NCBI RefSeq assembly: GCF_900079775.1
Contig: NZ_LT556036.1
Coordinates: 133,664 to 197,663 of the forward strand
Origin: Leyella lascolaii
GTDB taxonomy: Bacteria > Bacteroidota > Bacteroidia > Bacteroidales > Bacteroidaceae
Length of the DNA stretch: 64,000 bases
Direction of reading: 5' to 3'
Shown here: positions 13,802-60,667 of the stretch, one piece after another
Layout of the letters: each line of letters opens with the position of its first letter
Numbering within the stretch: the first letter of the stretch is position 1
Notes under the pieces: generated by a model
Told to the model about the DNA's origin: nothing
Database searches by the model: none
What the model saw: the letters and a program-made list of their open reading frames with translations, nothing else
Program-made: the position numbers and the translations under genes

Positions 13802-14550
13802 CTCGTCCTGTCATTCTTGCATGATTATGCGGAAAGGTGAATAGTTATGCGTTACAGGCATGGCGTCAACTCTCAGATACTCGTCTGTAGGCGATGTAGA
13901 TGATGTGCTGCGACAAATACGCGAGTTTTGGAGATGTGAGATAAGACGCTGTCATACAGGCATATACATTTCCACGTGTGCTCAGGAGCCTTATTCTGAG
14001 CCGCGGAAAAGGCTGTTTGGATGTCCCGAACAGCCTTTTCCGTGTCGTGGAACAGCCTTTGCGGAGCCATGAAACGGTCGTTTCAGTTATGCGGGAGAGC
14101 CTTTTCCGCTCTTTCCGTATGCTTCTATGCGACGGCTGTCGTATATATATGCGTGTTATATACGTATTTTCCCGTCTTTGCGTTTCTGTTTTGCGAATTT
14201 CCCGTGTCAATATTTTTTACCGTCATTACCGTATAAATATTCATTCCTTCCTTGCTGTCCTGCTTTTTTGTCCCGCATCCGCGTTTGGCATGCAACGGCT
14301 GTTTGCTGACGCGCTGAAGTGAATGCCGGACATAAGACCGCGTGATGTCCGGCGGCATTACGCTCACTTGTATCGGCGAACGGGCATTCTTCAGCCGTAA
14401 GCTTACTTATGTGAGGATATTTAATTGTGTGTTGTTCATTTTGCGACATAATGTTTACTGAAAGTGACATTATGCTTATAATAATTGTTAAAACGTTGCA
14501 TTCGGCTTGTTTTTTACAGTCTTGATGATGCGTCGAATGTATATAAATGC
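13802..14550. other. Intergenic region holding palindrome array A
   Basis: No gene with credible coding character. The main content is the six-unit 22-bp-period palindrome array at 13982-14108. The rest is AT-rich with scattered TATATA runs. Short frames here have no family resemblance. Confidence 0.6.
13982..14108. repeat. Palindrome array A: six 17-bp palindromic units at 22-bp period
   Basis: Units at 13982, 14004, 14026, 14048, 14070 and 14092, each 17 bp with 5-bp spacers. Examples are CGGAAAAGGCTGTTTGG, CCGAACAGCCTTTTCCG, TGGAACAGCCTTTGCGG and CGGGAGAGCCTTTTCCG. The consensus CGGAAAAGCCTTTTCCG is a perfect palindrome. Spacers (agccg, atgtc, tgtcg, agcca, ttatg) are not conserved. The first unit is the most degenerate. 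Confidence 0.85.
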
Positions 14551-18700: not shown

Positions 18701-18866
18701 ATTGCCGAGTGCAGCTTATCTTCTACAAAGATAACGCAATCGAGTGCAATGAGAACTTGTTCTTACATTGCCGAGTGCAGCTTATCTTCTACAAAGATAA
18801 CGCAATCGAGTGCAATGAGAACTTGTTCTTGTATTGCCGAGTGCAGCTTATCTTCTACAAAGATAC
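18701..18866. repeat. 66-bp tandem repeat, about 2.5 copies (dispersed-repeat family)
   Basis: Units begin ATTGCCGAGTGCAGC at 18701, 18767 and 18833 with exact 66-bp spacing. The first two are almost identical over their full length; the third stops after about 34 bases. Each contains CTTATCTTCTACAAAGATA, whose minus strand reads TATCTTTG, a -7-like motif, at plus 18726-18733, 18792-18799 and 18858-18865. All three point toward the polymerase gene. Confidence 0.9.
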
Positions 18867-18911: not shown

Positions 18912-19093
18912 GTAGAGACGCAAAATCTTGCGTCTCCCGAGTAAAAATCGCAGCAATGACAGGTCTTCTTCAACTCAGCGTATTGTGCATTCTTGCGTCT
19001 CCCGAGCAAAAACCGCAGCAACGACAGGGATTTTCTCACATCTTTTCATTGCGCATCCTTGCTTGTGAGACGCAAGATTTTGCGTCTCTACTT
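18912..19093. repeat. GAGACGC hairpins flanking two diverged 65-bp direct repeats
   Basis: Perfect hairpins GAGACGCAA-aatc-TTGCGTCTC (18915-18936) and GAGACGCAA-gatt-TTGCGTCTC (19067-19088) bracket the block. Between them TTGCGTCTCCCGAG followed by AAAA and CGCAGCAA occurs twice, at 18928 and 18993 (65 bases apart). It looks like a small repeat element with inverted ends. Confidence 0.75.
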
Positions 19094-19192: not shown

Positions 19193-19254
19193 AAAACAAA
19201 ATCAGCCACCGGTGTTCTTTCATGACGACGGGATGCGGGTATCGCGATGCACCT

Positions 19255-19320
19255 CTCCATATATAATGATGCCATTCTCCACGTATAATGATGCCATTCT
19301 CCATGTATAATGGTGTCCTT
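19255..19320. repeat. 22-bp tandem repeat, three units
   Basis: Three consecutive 22-bp units at 19255, 19277 and 19299. Each begins CTCCA and contains TATAATG followed by TG.C. Unlike the palindrome arrays it has no dyad symmetry. Confidence 0.85.
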
Positions 19321-19458
19321 TTATATATATAATAATGTGGACTTCTTAATGCAGCTTTCCTTTGCTTATGCAGGCGTCGGGTATTCTATCTGGTGCAGAC
19401 CAAAACCAGTCTTATGTCGGGAATGACATTCTGTATGGATATCAGCTTGCGTTTCTGT

Positions 19459-22034: not shown

Positions 22035-22916
22035 TTATATACGTTCCAGAACAGTTCTTATCAGGTCGTCTATCTTGTTCTTGTAGCCTGTGTTCGCCTC
22101 TTTGGCATACCTGTTGGCAATTACCATGCATACTGTTGTGGCTTTGTGCCCCATGAGACGTGCGAGACCCGCAAGGGCTGAGCTTTCCATCTCGAAGTTG
22201 GTTATGCACATGCCTTCATATCTGAAGCTCTCTATCTTTTCATTCTGGTGCGGGTCAGCCAGAGGCAGGCGCAGCTGTCTGCCCTGCGGTCCGAAAAAGC
22301 CTCCGCACGCCACTGTGATGCCCTTCACCATGTCATCACCGGAAATGCGGTCGGCAAGTTCCTTGTCCGAACTTATGACATAAGGTGCCGGCGCGCACAT
22401 GTTTCCGCTCCATCCGAGATGGTTAAGCAGCGCGCGCTCCAGTTGCAGGTCACACACGGTGTTGCGTCCGGCATAGAAATTAAGAAGTCCGTCGAAGCCG
22501 ACAGATTTCTCCGAACAGATGTATGTCCCTATGGGAGTGTGCGGCTGGAGTCCTCCGCATGTGCCGATGCGCACTATCTCAAGTTGTGTGAGATGTTCTT
22601 TTTCCTGTCTGGTGTTGAAATCGATGTTGGCAAGGGCGTCAATCTCGTTCATCACAATGTCGATGTTGTCGCATCCGATACCTGTTGATATCACGGTGAT
22701 GCGTTTGCCTTTGTAGTATCCTGTGACTGAATGGAACTCCCGGCTTTCTGTCTCGCATTCTGTCTCTGTGAAGTGTGAGGCTACCGTGGCAACCCGTCCG
22801 GGGTCGCCTACCAGTATTATTTTGCCGGCGAGCTGTTCCGGTCTGATATGTAGGTGGAAAATGCTTCCGTCTGCATTTATTATTAGTTCGGATTCTTCAA
22901 AATACTTCTTTACCAT
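22035..22916 (-). CDS. Nucleoside phosphorylase (uridine phosphorylase-like)
   Basis: A 293-residue enzyme of the PNP/UDP phosphorylase family, which splits a nucleoside with phosphate to base and ribose-1-phosphate. The phosphate-binding IILVGDPGRVATVASHF (about residues 31-47), the VIRIGT-like IVRIGTCGGLQPHTPIGTYI segment, and the base/ribose loop NFEMESSALAGLARLMGHKA are present. The family placement nearer to uridine phosphorylase than to PNP rests on the overall length and start. It is 20 bases downstream of the propeller lipoprotein gene; cotranscription is possible. Confidence 0.87.
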   Translation of the reverse strand: MVKKYFEESELIINADGSIFHLHIRPEQLAGKIILVGDPGRVATVASHFTETECETESREFHSVTGYYKGKRITVISTGIGCDNIDIVMNEIDALANIDFNTRQEKEHLTQLEIVRIGTCGGLQPHTPIGTYICSEKSVGFDGLLNFYAGRNTVCDLQLERALLNHLGWSGNMCAPAPYVISSDKELADRISGDDMVKGITVACGGFFGPQGRQLRLPLADPHQNEKIESFRYEGMCITNFEMESSALAGLARLMGHKATTVCMVIANRYAKEANTGYKNKIDDLIRTVLERI

Positions 22917-22936: not shown

Positions 22937-24112
22937 TTATTTTTTCATTTGCTCATATTCGCTCTTTCTAAGAGCGTTCATGTCGTTTATGATTGATTGT
23001 CTGAGCGTTTCGCCTGATTTCTCGGCATTCAGAATCTTGGTTGCCAGACTGCTTCGCTCCGAGCCCGTTGCCGAGCGGTATCTGGCACGCAGTTGTTCTG
23101 TCTGTTCGGACTCTTCGTCCAGCTGTTTCTGCCGTTTCCTGATGCTCAGATAAAGAGACCTGTTCTTGTCGGAAGAGAAGTCGGACAAATCTGTATATTC
23201 CACCTCGTCGTTGATGACAAAGCTGACGGATGTGCCGGACTCCACCGCCTTATTGTCACGCGCGACGGCTTTCTGAAGCCGTGCCATGGCTTTCTGTCTT
23301 GATTCCTCCGACTCCCATGTGTCTTTAATGCTTGTTATGGCAGCGTAGTTGCGGAGCGTGTTCTCATCAATCTCACCGTTGTAATTATGCCTTGTGGACG
23401 ACAGCGAAACAGTGTAGACGCATACTTTTCCTTCCGGTTGCCTTCTTGTGGTGGCAAACCAGGCTATGCCGTCTGTATCGTCTTCGACATACATCATGTC
23501 GTCTTTGTCTGAGTTGAACGGCAGACCCACATTCTCTGCTTTGAGGAATCTGCCTGACTCGGAGTCGTAGGTAGTGACATAAATGTCGTATCCGCCGAGC
23601 CCTTCTTCAGACTTTGCCGCAAAGTAAAGCGTGGTTCCGTCAGACGTCATGTACGGATAGTTTATCTCAGTAAAGGGAATGTCGAAGCCTTCAAGCAGTT
23701 GCGGCTGGCTCCATTCGCCGTCGTTCAGCCGGTCTCTGGTCATGAGCCTGAATGTGCTGTCGGCTGACATCTCAGAATAAAAGCACTTGTTGCCGAATCC
23801 GTTCACATACACGTATGTGTCAGTTCCCTTTTTAGTGTTGAAAAACTTGTCGTATGGCAATATCTGTCCATAGTCCTTTGGGAGGGGGATGGCGTCTGAC
23901 AGGCGGTTGCGGTCAACAACGGTGCTGTCTATTATGAACAGCTTCTGTGTGTTGGGCAACATGCTCTCATAAAGCATGCTTGCCATATCCGTCTCCTCTG
24001 TCTCAGTGTTCTGGACCCTTGGCTTATTGTGGTGCTTTTGTCTGCGCACTTGCGACAGGACGCAGGAAGCTACAAACGATGCGATAATAAGTAAATATAT
24101 TCTTTGTCTCAT
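22937..24112 (-). CDS. Predicted lipoprotein with PD40/WD40-like propeller and coiled-coil end
   Basis: A 391-residue envelope protein. The N-terminus is a lipoprotein-type signal (MRQRIYLLIIASFVASC) with a possible lipobox VASC at residues 14-17. The middle has TolB-like PD40 propeller repeats, for example INYPYMTSDGTTLYFAAKSE, then GLGGYDIYVTTYDSE and DGIAWFATTRR. The last 100 residues are charged, predicted coiled coil (QKQLDEESEQTEQLRARYRS). Similar propeller lipoproteins occur beside OmpA-like and T9SS-associated proteins in Bacteroidetes, but no such partner is adjacent. Function unknown. Confidence 0.75.
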   Translation of the reverse strand: MRQRIYLLIIASFVASCVLSQVRRQKHHNKPRVQNTETEETDMASMLYESMLPNTQKLFIIDSTVVDRNRLSDAIPLPKDYGQILPYDKFFNTKKGTDTYVYVNGFGNKCFYSEMSADSTFRLMTRDRLNDGEWSQPQLLEGFDIPFTEINYPYMTSDGTTLYFAAKSEEGLGGYDIYVTTYDSESGRFLKAENVGLPFNSDKDDMMYVEDDTDGIAWFATTRRQPEGKVCVYTVSLSSTRHNYNGEIDENTLRNYAAITSIKDTWESEESRQKAMARLQKAVARDNKAVESGTSVSFVINDEVEYTDLSDFSSDKNRSLYLSIRKRQKQLDEESEQTEQLRARYRSATGSERSSLATKILNAEKSGETLRQSIINDMNALRKSEYEQMKK

Positions 24113-24145: not shown

Positions 24146-25032
24146 AATAAAAAATAATAAAGAATGGACGGTTTTAACGTAATTTTTTATATTGCAGCCA
24201 ATCGGTACTCAATGCGTGTCTGTGTGACACCTGGCTCTCATAAGGAGGCATGCAGCCGCAGACATACGTCTTTTGCATGTATGCCTGAACCGCTGTACGC
24301 ACGTCAGCGGACATGAAAGATGATTCTGTTTTTCATTATAATCATCCATGACTTGAATATTACGATTGCTTCACGTGTGCAGTCCGCACATGCGTCACCG
24401 TTCATCCGGAATGGATATTTATTCAGAATGGAAAGTAAAAAATCTTTACATTGATTTTCTGGAAAACAGAACCGCGATGAACGCCCGGGCACTGTCTTGT
24501 GCGTGTTATGGCTTATCCGTATATTGCCCGGATTCAGATGCTCTCCCCCAAAATTCTTCTTTATTTCCTTATATATGCTCTCCCGCAGTGCTTTTTCATA
24601 CTGTCCGGGTTTGTATGGCAGGCATGCCGTGTAGCGGAAAAGGCAATGTCATGTCCCCATACGGGCTTTTCCATATGCCCGAAGAGCCTCTTCAGCATGG
24701 CGGAAAAGCCTTTTTCGTACGCTGTTTAAAGGCATTTTTCATGACTGTTTGCGTATTGTGCTGATATTGAACGGATTGTGAAAACGTGTCATAAATCGCG
24801 TATACGGCGGTAAAACGTTCCTGCTTTGCCTCTGCGCGATTCTCGCGGACTTTACATTGTTTGATTATTCGTACAGCCTCTACTGTATTGCTGAATATGC
24901 GCATCGTCCCAGCCGACATGTCTCATCATATCCGCCCGTGCGGCTTTTTCTTTTTTCCGTCGTATTTTTGCTTCCCGCATGTCTCGTCAAACGCATTTAC
25001 CGGTGAGTCTGTGGTCAGGGCGCCAAAGGTTT
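24146..25032. other. Intergenic region holding palindrome array B
   Basis: Nearly 0.9 kb without a credible gene. It contains the 22-bp-period array at 24635-24739, with weaker, out-of-register units to its left. Short frames on both strands show no family pattern. Confidence 0.6.
24635..24739. repeat. Palindrome array B: five 17-bp units at 22-bp period
   Basis: Units start at 24635, 24657, 24679, 24701 and 24723: CGGAAAAGGCAATGTCA, CCATACGGGCTTTTCCA, CCGAAGAGCCTCTTCAG, CGGAAAAGCCTTTTTCG and TGTTTAAAGGCATTTTT. Spacers are tgtcc, tatgc, catgg and tacgc. The fourth unit is one base from the consensus palindrome. Confidence 0.85.
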
Positions 25033-26148
25033 TCATTGCCTCTCACTGATTATCTTATAATATAGAGACTCGTATTGCCGTGCCACCTTTATATAGTCAT
25101 GATGCTTGCCGATGTATTCAATGCTTTGTCTTTTCAATGACGGAATCATCTCGGGATGCAGTACAAGACGTTCAAGACTGTCATACACGCTGCCGTATTC
25201 TGGGAGGACATTGACTACGGGTCTCAGTCTGTCTTCATTCAATATGTCATAGTTCTCGGGCTCTCCGCCGCCGACGCATATTATTCCTTTTGCCATGGCT
25301 TGCAGCGCGTTCATGGCAGGCGTGTAGCTGTAGAGCTGGTCAAGCAGGACGTCTGAATTGTTCATCAGCCTGACATATTCCCCGAAAGGTACAGACTCTA
25401 CTTTTATAAGTTCCACCTTTTCCTTATATTTCCGTTGTATGTCCTCCGCCGCTTCAAGCATTATGTCAGTGCCTTTATATTCGTTGCGTGTCTTGTTGAT
25501 GCCTATGAATATTCTTAAGGGCATGTTTCCCGGACGGCTGTCGCAAGGGAGTGCGTTCCTCTCCGGTTTTATGGGGAACGGGATGTAAGCCGTCTTTTCG
25601 GCGAAAGCCTGCCTGTAGCACACGAAATACTCGTAAAGTCCAGCCACTATCATGTCGCAGTCGTCAGCGATATATTTGTTAAGCCGCTCTTTTGATGTGC
25701 CTATCCAGTCTTTCCGTTCTTTTATGGCATCGGTGTTGTTGCGGAGACTGTCGCCAATGTTAAAGTCGCTGTATCTTAGCGGTTTGGAGTCGCAGCATGT
25801 CTTGACCCAGTAGTAATCCATGCCGAAAGCGCAGAGTACCAGTCCGTTATTATGCTTTCTGATATATCTGTATATCGGAAAGATCAGGTCAGCCTTTATC
25901 TCCAGAAATATAGGGTTGATAATCTGCACGATGTCATATCCGCGCATTAGGGGGAGAGTCTTTATGAGTTTCGTAATGTATCTCAGACCTCCTGCTTTTG
26001 AATAGCTTCTTGTCAGGGATATGTCGCGGTTGTAGTTCTTCCAGTAATCACCGTTTGATATGACCGTCACCGTGTGTCCTAATTGCCTGAGACCTTCGGC
26101 AAGAGTCCAGTGCACGTTACTGTATTCACCGATTAAAAGTATCTTCAT
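25033..26148 (-). CDS. Glycosyltransferase, GT-B fold (family 4-like)
   Basis: A 371-residue GT-B type glycosyltransferase. The N-terminus MKILLIGEYSNVHWTLAEGL and the pattern LGHTVTVISNGDYW fit the acceptor domain. The C-terminal donor domain has LRIFIGINKTRNEYKGTDIM, a segment VLLDQLYSYTPAMNALQAMA with the usual family position, and GGGEPENYDIL. The common EX7E glutamates are not clear, so the family number is uncertain. It overlaps the upstream family 2 gene by 4 bases (ATGA), so both belong to one operon, probably for a surface glycan. Confidence 0.83.
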   Translation of the reverse strand: MKILLIGEYSNVHWTLAEGLRQLGHTVTVISNGDYWKNYNRDISLTRSYSKAGGLRYITKLIKTLPLMRGYDIVQIINPIFLEIKADLIFPIYRYIRKHNNGLVLCAFGMDYYWVKTCCDSKPLRYSDFNIGDSLRNNTDAIKERKDWIGTSKERLNKYIADDCDMIVAGLYEYFVCYRQAFAEKTAYIPFPIKPERNALPCDSRPGNMPLRIFIGINKTRNEYKGTDIMLEAAEDIQRKYKEKVELIKVESVPFGEYVRLMNNSDVLLDQLYSYTPAMNALQAMAKGIICVGGGEPENYDILNEDRLRPVVNVLPEYGSVYDSLERLVLHPEMIPSLKRQSIEYIGKHHDYIKVARQYESLYYKIISERQ

Positions 26149-27113
26149 TTTGTTGTCATTGTGAATAACAGGTTGCGTAATAGTCTGTTATTTACTACTT
26201 TTCTGAAACAGACGTATTTCTTCGAGTAGTTTTTCTCAGGCAAAGGAAACAGCATGTGCTCTTTCATCTGTCTTATCGCGTTGTCGAGATATTCCCTGTC
26301 GTGCGTGAGACGGATGATGTTGTATATGTAGTCCATTGTCAGTTGGGCTATCCGCCGTTGCAGTGCCGGTCTGTCGGTCTCGGGTATCGTCTCGATTATC
26401 GATTGCAGATGAAGTATCACGTTCTTGAAATCAGACAGCCGGTTGTATATGTGTGACTTGTCTTTATTGTTGGTTATGGAGTTGTTTCTTTTTCTGTAAT
26501 AGTAGGCGGATGCGTTTGTCGAGATGACATTTTCAGCCCTTAAAAGCAGCTGTGGCGTGAAGTCCTCATCCTCATGGACTATGCCCGGGCGGAAGCGCAA
26601 GTCTCCGAGGATGTTCCTTCTGAACAAGAATCCGCATACTGAAGCTACGAGATTGTTGTTTTTCATGTAGTTGCTGCCGCTTACAGGCTCACTGTATGAG
26701 AACGGTACACTTACGTCTGTAGTGCCTGTAATTTTAAACATTATCATGTCCGGCGTCTGGTATCTTGCTATGTCAAGGCAGTGCTCGTAAGGTGCGGGAA
26801 TTATGAAGTCGTCGCCGTCGACGAATTGTATGTATCTGCCAGAGGCATACATGAGTCCGGTGTTGCGTGCTACGGAGAGTCCCTTGTTCCTTTGCCGTAC
26901 GTAGACCAACTCGTCTCTTAGTTCGGTTATCTCGTTAATTACGGATATGTCGGAGCCGTCGTCAACCAGTATTATCTCACGCTCTTCGTTGCTGAGCGAT
27001 AATTTCAGAAGACTGCCGATACACTCCTTTATCATGTGTGACGGAATGTTGTATGATGTTATGATAAAGCTGACCAGTGGCTCTGTGTTGTGAGATGAAT
27101 ACAATTCATTCAT
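26145..27113 (-). CDS. Glycosyltransferase family 2
   Basis: A 322-residue GT-A glycosyltransferase. The start VSFIITSYNIPSHMIKECIG, the nucleotide-binding IILVDDGSDISVINEI, the VRQRNKGLSVARNTGLMYAS segment and the acidic motif FVDGDDFI (in the DxD position, about residue 95) are all typical. The C-terminal third is helical and variable. It is the first gene of a two-gene operon with the GT-B enzyme downstream (4-base overlap) and follows a -7 box 65 bases upstream of its ATG. Substrate unknown. Confidence 0.9.
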   Translation of the reverse strand: MNELYSSHNTEPLVSFIITSYNIPSHMIKECIGSLLKLSLSNEEREIILVDDGSDISVINEITELRDELVYVRQRNKGLSVARNTGLMYASGRYIQFVDGDDFIIPAPYEHCLDIARYQTPDMIMFKITGTTDVSVPFSYSEPVSGSNYMKNNNLVASVCGFLFRRNILGDLRFRPGIVHEDEDFTPQLLLRAENVISTNASAYYYRKRNNSITNNKDKSHIYNRLSDFKNVILHLQSIIETIPETDRPALQRRIAQLTMDYIYNIIRLTHDREYLDNAIRQMKEHMLFPLPEKNYSKKYVCFRKVVNNRLLRNLLFTMTTK

Positions 27114-37410: not shown

Positions 37411-38721
37411 TGTGTTTCTATAATGCTTGATGTCGCTATAAAACCTGTTCAGTTATCATATCTCCCGAACCACTTTTCATTCGGCTTATCGTCTCTTAAT
37501 TCCTCTCCCACACTGTTGCCATTATCTTGTCTCTCGCTTTCGCCCGATGTAGGCAGTCATATCTTCGAAATAATAGGAAGTCAATATGCCAGACAACAGT
37601 TCGGAACACTTAGAATGTATGAAGCTTGGCTCAGGTCTAAAGCATCACATTGTGCCTTCCGTGCGGATGAAGGAACATGGAGTTGTGGCATGGCTGTTAA
37701 AGGGGCAAAATGAGGATCAGAGGTTATGTGTGGAACAATATCAGGCAACATCATGCAACGCCGTCATCTGATATGTCCTTGATAGCCTTGAGGCGATAAA
37801 CATAGTGTGACGACAGCTCTGTCTGAAGTAAAAAATATTGACAAAATATTTTCATAAAACAGATGAGCTGGAGCAATGCATGCTCACTCTTCATGTAGTA
37901 TTGTTTTTCTGTAATTTCAACGCAGGTTATATATTCCGCTGTTTTTATCGTCCCAATGTCTTGAATTATGCTCTTTTTGCGAACAGAATGATTCAGCTAT
38001 CTCTGTAAGCGTACGATATGATTCCTCAGAATAGCCTTTATCATCGTTCAATACAGGCTTTTTCGAGAGCCAGAACAGGCTTTCCTGTGCGATGAAAAAG
38101 CCTTTTCCGTAATATAGGAAAACCTTTTTACAGACTTTGTATCTGCAATATGCTTATGTCCAATGGATTACGTTTTTGCTTCATTAGTCTGTGTACATGC
38201 CGGTGTTCGGTTGTCCGTTGTCTTTTGCACGATTCTCAGTCACTTGACGTTATCCGCATATTCCTCCTTATTCCACCATATTGCGCATGTTTGCGATTTG
38301 ATTCCGGTACATGGGATTTATCATCTCTTTATATCCGATTTTGAAATTCGCTTCCTCTTGTTTTGTGTTTGTGCCGTCGCAGTTTGAATCAAGAACATTA
38401 CCTGCGCTAATGCGCATTTATTACAGTCCGCCAAAAACTCTTTAATTCTTAATTTGTCATCATACCGCAAAAGTTGTCTTCTCACTTGTCTGCCGGTTCT
38501 CCACTTCTCTTCCGATATGCTGCCGCCATCTTTCCTTCCGCTCCTGTACGATGGTGTCCGCCATATCCATCGACAAAGACGCAAATCTATATGTATGATT
38601 GCGGCACGAAATACTAATGAAGTATGATGTCGTGATTTGGGTTAAATATAATTATGATTCAAGTTGAAAAACAAGTTTTGTGTCAGTCCGTGTCAATATA
38701 ATGGCTTTGTGAAAAAGACAA
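37411..38721. other. Long intergenic region with palindrome array C
   Basis: About 1.3 kb without a convincing gene. It has the 22-bp-period array at 38027-38131 and a -7-like box on the minus strand (38582-38589, TAgaTTTG) followed by a 36-codon frame at 38570-38460. No remnants of known transposase or phage genes were recognised. Confidence 0.6.
38027..38131. repeat. Palindrome array C: five 17-bp units at 22-bp period
   Basis: Units start at 38027, 38049, 38071, 38093 and 38115: CAGAATAGCCTTTATCA, CAATACAGGCTTTTTCG, CAGAACAGGCTTTCCTG, TGAAAAAGCCTTTTCCG and TAGGAAAACCTTTTTAC. Spacers are tcgtt, agagc, tgcga and taata. The central AAAGCCTTTT is best preserved in the fourth unit. Confidence 0.85.
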
Positions 38722-59683: not shown

Positions 59684-60667
59684 ATTGAATATAACGTTCT
59701 TCTTCCGTCATTATTGTATATTACGGCTAATATGTTTTATTTACGGCTTTGGAGCGGGTAAGTGTCGCTTTAGCGCAATGGCTGTAAACTGTTTTCCGGC
59801 AGGTCGTTACGCCATACAACCTGCGTTTTGTGATTACCGCGTATTGTGCCGGCATGCGTGCACTGTCCTTCTTACGGCTACATTGTCTTGTATGATAATA
59901 ACATGCAGGGATGCTTTCGCGTTAAGCTTTTTAACTTAAAAAGAACCCCTGTTTAACATATGTAGACAAGCCGCTTCTGTAATGCGATACGCCGGAAAAA
60001 GTCGTGTCAGGATGTCGTTAAGGTTCTTGCAGACAGCTGTCCTTGCATGTGGATTCGGCGGAAGAGGCTTTATCGCGCTCCCGTAAAGGCATTCTGACTC
60101 TACGGAACAGTGCGTTACGCAGTACGGAACAGTATCTTTCGCCCGACGGAAAAGCCCGTTTCGGAGAGCGGATGAAACATGATTATGCCGTCGTTTTGCG
60201 CAAATGACTGATATACATACGGTTGTCTGACATCTCCATTTTCGGCGTATTTTGATTCAAAACCGATGTCGTCGCAGAATAATCCGAATATGATGACATA
60301 TGCGCAGGCATGTGGCTGATTATGATTGATTATATTCAATTAAGCTGACTCTTGTTGTTCCCCTGTTAATGCCGTGTCTTGTTGTCGGTCATCAGCGGCT
60401 CTTCAACCAAACTCGGTCGTCAGACTTCATTCCTATCTCATGCTGCTGCCGGATATGGTGCCTTACGTTTTAGTAAAAGACCTCGTGCATGCTGCGTAGG
60501 GAAAAAGGGGAGACAAGGCGGTCGCAGCAGAGCGAAGGAGGAATGGGCAACCGTCATTCAATGGTAAATCTGCGACAAGTGTTCCAGCCTCCGATTCGGG
60601 TTGAAGGTTTCAGAATGTTATAATATATTTACAGCATCTTTCATACCGTAATCTTTCCATCCTATTT
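59684..60667. other. Intergenic region holding palindrome array D
   Basis: About 1 kb with no convincing gene. It contains the array at 60059-60163. A degenerate unit and CGTTTTGCGCAAATG, palindromic around TTTGCGCAAA, extend it to about 60207. The remainder is not recognised. Confidence 0.6.
60059..60163. repeat. Palindrome array D: five 17-bp units at 22-bp period
   Basis: Units start at 60059, 60081, 60103, 60125 and 60147: CGGAAGAGGCTTTATCG, CCGTAAAGGCATTCTGA, CGGAACAGTGCGTTACG, CGGAACAGTATCTTTCG and CGGAAAAGCCCGTTTCG. Spacers are cgctc, ctcta, cagta and cccga. A sixth weak unit may follow at 60169. Confidence 0.85.

Follow-up and report, generated by a model that had tools for sequence, protein, structure and literature searches.

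A multicopy intergenic element of Leyella lascolaii with a 22-bp palindromic lattice between two different modules, a possible target of a dimeric DNA-binding protein

Intergenic arrays similar to the one described here have so far been filed, according to the available parts of their accounts, as MITEs (BrickBuilt) or as non-autonomous mobile elements (BIMEs). BrickBuilt, which is the nearest described element as far as its available account goes, was found in Porphyromonas gingivalis; it is intergenic and consists of imperfect 23-nt tandem repeats placed between different leader and tail flanks (PMC4596501). The accessible part of the same account gives a variable number of repeats, a species-limited distribution and 19 copies, and proposes that the element is a MITE (PMC4596501). 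The REP sequences and BIMEs are palindromes present in more than 100 copies per genome, arranged in arrays and species-specific; the accessible excerpt reports that protein binding and chromosome organisation were suggested for them and that BIMEs are treated as non-autonomous mobile elements (PMC2817692). Apart from BrickBuilt and REP/BIME, a search of the literature carried out mostly outside subscription journals returned nothing resembling the element. Iteron arrays and plasmid centromeres are also rows of cooperatively bound sites that share one face of the DNA at intervals of about two helical turns, but they serve replication or partition from a single locus or a few loci and do not recur at hundreds of places chromosome-wide. 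To our knowledge, the nucleoid organisation of the Prevotella-like lineage has been little studied.

The array that is the subject of this work lies in a window of 64,000 nucleotides, that is the whole stretch of Leyella lascolaii DNA that was presented for analysis. A sequence-only reading had noticed a palindromic array with a 22-bp period between two genes of the same strand, and this description holds. The gap measures 920 bp and both flanking genes, 22937-24112 and 25033-26148, are on the minus strand. Identity at lag 22 amounts to 0.447 over 24600-24780 vs 0.253 +/- 0.034 in dinucleotide shuffles; the observed value is matched by none of 2000 shuffles and, at any lag from 10 to 60, by none of 1000. 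Tandem Repeats Finder, used with its default score, did not call the array at 24632-24741. The product labels initially proposed for the two neighbours, “glycosyltransferase” (25033-26148) and “lipoprotein” (22937-24112), find no backing, as Pfam gives neither gene a match at 1e-3. Glycosyltransferase family 2 is matched by the next gene along, 26145-27113. The best protein matches of the phosphorylase encoded at 22035-22916 (82%) come from Phocaeicola faecicola, Xylanibacter caecicola and a Prevotellaceae MAG, relatives that suggest a Prevotella-like bacterium.

Units were scored with a 22-bp matrix derived from related arrays; it describes a dyad TGCGGAAAAG-S-CTTTTCCGCA with one additional base, and its information lies mostly in the core and little in the spacer. 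Its training copies were reached via BLAST with the window array or an array of a congener (G026), and scores given by this matrix, by the A and B profiles or by the model R1 (see below) to copies on which they were trained are partly circular. The units starting at 24632, 24654, 24676 and 24698 score 10.1, 13.8, 19.2 and 23.7 bits, respectively. The last one, as read off the sequence, departs at a single position from the 17-nt core CGGAAAAG-S-CTTTTCCG, in agreement with the earlier mention of a unit a single base from the consensus. Of the five units then counted in exact register, four are retained and the fifth is not, its by-eye fit improving one base off register (Table 1). The weaker units thought to lie out of register on the left side were not recovered as such: seven of the eight lattice positions there score below 0 and one scores 3.5.

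Table 1. Features of the window array, of the element that contains it and of the other arrays of the same family in the window
Feature	Position	Strand	Basis or remark
Leader-like A flank (outward reading)	24376-24632	-	nhmmer, A profile, E 8e-27, partly circular because the profile was built from 30 flanks including this one
Conserved A block (AGTAAAAAATCTTTACATTGATTTTCTGGAAAACAGAAC)	24434-24472	+	in 22-bp phase with the array
Degenerate part of the lattice, from A block to clear units	24473-24631	.	phase kept, most unit scores negative
Four clear 22-bp palindromic units in exact register	24632-24719	.	matrix scores and shuffles
Weak fifth unit, about one base off register	24720-24741	.	in-register score -10.2
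B2 flank, tail-like module	24744-24979	+	nhmmer E 7e-41, with the same partial circularity as the A flank
B block I (AAATCGCGTATACGG), cognate of AAAATTCGCGTATTTG	24793-24807	+	71 bases from the array edge
B block II (GATTCTCGCGGACTTTACATTG)	24838-24859	+	
Array of the same family, 5 units, A right, B1 left	14001-14110	.	
Array of the same family, 5 units, A left, B2 right	38024-38133	.	
Array of the same family, 5 units, flanks unclassified	60056-60165	.	

The sequence-only reading was right about the array but restricted to it; to this are added the flanking modules, a phase lock, an even spacing and a motif that changes from species to species. The window array is actually the middle of an oriented element of about 600 bp (about 24376-24979), in which a 22-bp lattice is held between a module A and a module B and which, given the extent of its A and B2 flanks, fills most of the gap. 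Its A block is anchored 179 bases (8 x 22 + 3) from the array edge, CTTTACATTG of B block II recurs in the A block in the same direction, and the B2 flank is also matched by R1 (G000:C3:158417-158518, one of the training copies of this model). When the flanks of 40 arrays of the genome are read outward, 30 belong to A, 23 to B1 and 9 to B2, 18 of the 80 being unclassified. Wherever both flanks could be classified (29 arrays), one is A and the other B; four other arrays have one classified flank and seven have none. Flanks are likewise unclassified on both sides for 9 of the 35 arrays of contig C16. In the same way, G026 displays one A-class and one B-class flank in 13 of 13 arrays with both flanks classified, and its palindrome is another one (AAAACGTA-NN-TACGTTTT); these arrays come from 20 stretches, most of them chosen by BLAST, of which 19 have arrays, five of these 19 arrays being without any classified flank.

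This organization recalls that of BrickBuilt, whose available account gives the same order of leader, tandem repeat and tail with two different flanks, as found here in 29 of 29 classified arrays. The unit differs, being of 22 bp and palindromic here and of 23 nt there, a comparison that is based on the available descriptions and not on aligned sequences. Terminal inverted repeats like those of an IS5-family element, which this account gives for BrickBuilt, were not clearly seen here, the ends of one element matching each other little better than the ends of different elements; the ends of the element are, however, not sharply defined. Phase lock, selection and even spacing, which are found here, do not appear in the available part of the BrickBuilt account.

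The spacing of the units is rigid. For 259 units from 40 arrays of the genome, peaks were found without chaining; of the 140 steps of less than 29 bp between neighbouring peaks, 135 measure exactly 22 bp, and any two units share only about 50% of their bases. The distances between the A block and the array edge cluster near 70, 92, 114, 158, 180 and 246 in 28 of 30 flanks, i.e., 2-6 mod 22, with a Rayleigh R of 0.97 at period 22 vs 0.80-0.81 at 21 and 23. In G026, 11 of 12 A-like distances are found near 46, 68 and 90, and one (81) is out of phase. The distances of the B block cluster near 49, 71 and 93 (42 of 46 flanks, both species), which, taken alone, barely favours 22 (R 0.97 vs 0.95-0.96 at 21 and 23). 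Flanks below the anchor cut-off were dropped (2 of 30 A, 1 of 13 A-like in G026, 4 of 46 B). As both modules lie at 22-bp steps, the phase runs all the way between A and B, through stretches in which the units no longer have their core as well.

Arrays of this family are numerous in the genome. The claim that the window array belongs to a series of the same design is borne out by at least 58 BLAST matches at E<=10, a count that includes the array itself and both strands; 40 of 135 candidates were scored. Searching 304 kb (the window and twelve 20-kb stretches) revealed 15 arrays with scores of 51-145, none lying between the cut-off of 22 and 51, and one shuffle per stretch gave no score above 15. 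Together with twenty further stretches of C16, 47 arrays (15 + 35 less 3 counted twice) are found in 704 kb, about one per 15 kb. If this sample is fair, the genome would hold some 250 arrays, far from the 19 copies in the available BrickBuilt account.

The arrays are intergenic in 35 of 35 cases over C16:1-460000, in gaps of 476-1847 bp. Genes called with our own codon-usage caller, which underlies all counts of orientation, gap and distance, place 21 of them between tandem genes, 7 between convergent and 7 between divergent ones; as the sequence-only reading held, the arrays are not tied to convergent gene ends. Their spacing has a mean of 12.7 kb, a minimum of 5119 bp and a CV of 0.48. Drawing 35 places from the 98 gaps of at least 300 bp gives a mean CV of 0.89 (P(CV) = 0.0001; P(min) = 0/10000), and drawing them from the 66 gaps of at least 500 bp gives 0.80 (P 0.0001). 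It should be emphasized that the tests in this work were exploratory, with uncorrected P values, that the matrix picked out these 35 arrays along a continuous sequence, part of which had been examined earlier, and that the even spacing concerns one 460-kb stretch of one contig in one genome. It suggests, without proving it, a role at the level of the chromosome. Copies in G026 and in its sister congener G003 are fewer and not regular by eye.

High-copy palindromes in intergenic arrays (35 of 35 in 460 kb) are a feature shared with REP/BIME as described in the accessible excerpt. Unlike the units of that description, those found here are symmetric 22-mers, so their orientation cannot alternate. 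A link with a RAYT was rejected: the Y1 transposase domain PF01797 has no match at E<=0.01 in this genome, which is 99.9% complete, while the control search was positive in 6 of 14 genomes.

The distribution of the element in relatives depends on the way in which it is sought. With the window array or a consensus as BLAST probe, only the genome itself responds, both among 60 genomes (E<=0.01) and among 80 (E<=0.001), and a first scan of genome contigs found no relative. The resulting impression of a one-species repeat was overturned by lag scans and by R1, a sequence-only model of module B made from 11 copies of the genome and 10 of G026. This model has a match at E<=0.05 in 83 of 119 genomes of the genus, many of which hold one or two weak matches, some necessarily due to chance. 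At least 10 matches are present in 26 of the 119 (the genome itself and G026 included) and at least 33 in eleven; five listed genomes of the genus have no match at E<=0.01. When the DNA next to the best match was examined in 21 genomes, lag 22 exceeded all other lags from 12 to 40 on one side in 14 of them (12 of 19 without the two training genomes), compared with 0 of 84 control stretches. Two more loci of the genus (L318, L321) also give a lag-22 signal, and one array of G069 is nearly unique in its genome. Multiple R1 matches (10-21) also occur in five genomes from other genera of the family, the lattice being absent from the five loci looked at there (L316, L317, L319, L320, L322). Outside the family, genomes have only 1-3 weak matches and seven loci gave no lag-22 signal.

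Other scans did not rely on R1. In noncoding DNA of 80 named loci, an excess at lag 22 is found 13 times vs at most 4 at any other lag from 12 to 60. In 15 congener stretches, scanned with a looser cut-off (0.48 vs 0.50), lag 22 is found 9 times, as is lag 14, and lags 21 and 44 are each found 8 times, some of these hits being 7-base repeats.

At the window locus itself, relatives seen so far lack the array. Prevotella sp. 885 (L123 3611-5953) has the same two genes in the same order, encoding proteins 64% and 41% identical, with less than 60 bp between them and no element, and 29 congener loci of the left gene have no 22-bp array within 1.5 kb on each side. The sequence-only reading was to be given up if such absence in all relatives went together with a lack of similar arrays elsewhere in the genome; the many copies in the genome show that this is not the case.

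The palindrome differs by eye among many species, while G003 and G026 share theirs. A second, different 22-bp core was noticed within single genomes, around 1165 in L214 (G026) and at 1541 and 14642 in L148 (G028). The motif is therefore not strictly one per species, which weighs against the idea that each species has a single protein for it. Arrays of 22 bp with other sequences exist in other Bacteroidaceae, and some of them follow gene ends.

Comparisons between units and between species give information on what is conserved. Identity between units is 0.496 within arrays, 0.506 between arrays and 0.533 for adjacent units. Recent tandem duplication or slippage was therefore rejected as the origin of the rows, the units being no more alike within arrays. 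The two half-sites change almost without regard to each other: a small nominal excess of covariation was seen for 3 of the 16 pairs tested, two within the dyad (p 0.014 and 0.008) and one across the spacer (p 0.026). In the inverted repeat of B1/B2, covariation was seen in only 1 of 40 pairs in the genome (p 0.047). Such scarcity argues against hairpins, and a hairpin function was rejected for the unit dyads as for the B inverted repeat. In 13 element pairs of G003 and G026, divergence is 0.131 at high-information positions (1069 sites), 0.390 at low-information positions (747) and 0.253 in the flanks (9812), the position classes being derived from G026 units that include the compared arrays. 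Gaps are rarer in arrays (3.4 per kb) than in flanks (8.1), those of the arrays measuring 1, 1, 1, 1, 10, 21, 44 and 67 bp. As regards the variation in unit number by 22 bp that was to be looked for between strains, the comparison of these two sister congeners, which are not strains of L. lascolaii, shows array pairs differing by 66-67, 44 and 21 bp (one each).

Constraint on half-sites and spacing, joined to nearly absent covariation, points to a dimeric DNA-binding protein acting on one face of the helix. Two turns of relaxed B-DNA make about 21 bp, so 22 bp is not exactly two turns; a step of about two turns would nevertheless leave the dyads facing nearly the same way. The reading that we prefer, with a probability of roughly one half, is that of a multicopy chromosomal DNA element, cooperatively bound by a putative dimeric protein and perhaps organising the chromosome. 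Each unit would bind a dimer of this putative protein through two independent half-sites, and successive dimers would assist each other's binding along a row that A and B anchor. As the least certain step, the complexes, present about every 13 kb, may help to organise or insulate the chromosome. It is more tentatively that we consider an organising system of Prevotella-like bacteria, with arrays about every 13 kb, a fixed 22-bp ruler, two anchor modules and a putative fast-evolving protein. The idea that, in such a system, species would differ in the target palindrome but retain the anchors and the length of the ruler, many positions being kept between close species, is possible but likewise on the doubtful side. 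Slowly evolving half-sites, a rigid ruler, phase in the flanks, shared places and even spacing on one contig are testable signs of a chromosome-level DNA-protein system. Furthermore, a changed palindrome beside a recurring B module would provide a natural experiment on the co-evolution of a DNA-binding protein and its sites.

An unlikely alternative is a MITE-like non-autonomous mobile element with an internal minisatellite, as proposed for BrickBuilt, in which target immunity would create the even spacing and decay the variety of sequences. Such an element would account for the architecture shared with BrickBuilt as described in its available account, for the many dispersed intergenic copies in either direction (on C16, 16 +, 10 - and 9 unclear, i.e., no strict polarity) and for the relatives without the element at the window locus. 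However, the copies have diverged, and the mean best 12-mer match between inverted ends is 9.76 within the same element, 9.62 with another element and 9.24 after shuffling (29 elements), direct repeats giving 10.10 and 9.66 in the same test. Solo ends are also missing: in 460 kb of C16, every A or B match at E<=0.01 is accompanied by an array. In addition, 13 of 17 G003 elements adjoin DNA orthologous to the neighbourhood of a G026 element, on both sides for 6 and on one side for 7, in a comparison that covered 20 fetched G026 elements. Lastly, neither the core-versus-spacer constraint nor the phase lock is expected from decaying copies.

It is still less probable that these are dispersed operator arrays of one regulon or silencer, which would act on neighbour genes and not on the structure of the chromosome. 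Their anatomy could be the one seen here, and the distance from an array to its nearest called genes ranges from 15 to 1914 bp, mostly a few hundred. There is however no clear tie to gene starts: in 33 oriented copies, the genes on the A side and on the B side point into/away from the element in 12, into/into in 8, away/into in 6, away/away in 6 and unknown/away in 1. Even spacing along the chromosome is not expected for a regulon either.

The weakest rival, quite improbable, is an RNA-level element whose tandem hairpins would be terminators or RNA-processing signals in intergenic transcripts: the units are palindromic, the B inverted repeat of G018 and that of G226 look nearly perfect and gene ends are followed by some arrays of other Bacteroidaceae, but covariation is scarce, hairpins do not need exact spacing, 7 of 35 arrays lie between divergent genes, terminator-like sites number 2 vs 1.0 expected and Rfam finds no match besides tRNA in the window at gathering score. 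A permissive Rfam search of 16 loci gave only tRNA and one match with E 0.2 below its gathering score, and a known RNA family was thus rejected. A phage or plasmid origin was also rejected, two collections giving no match at E 0.01.

Some other repeats were observed. In three Bacteroides, 22-bp palindromic arrays with unrelated cores (L119 around 1500-1620, L130 around 1590-1710 and L135 around 1540-1660) all lie beside the same small membrane-protein gene. A GC-rich 22-bp array of Bacteroides fragilis S82 (L109 1233-1360) lies beside ATAAACACATTA, to be compared with ATCAACACATTA beside some arrays of L. lascolaii. The window contains another 22-bp tandem array at 19246-19337, AT-rich and of different sequence (GATGCCATTCTCCATGTATAAT). 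Tandem repeats of 66 bp, together with an inverted-repeat element whose arms resemble GAGACGCAAAATCTTGCGTCTC, are also present in it at 18701-18865 and 18912-19091, and the same arms are found near the arrays of L023 and L024.
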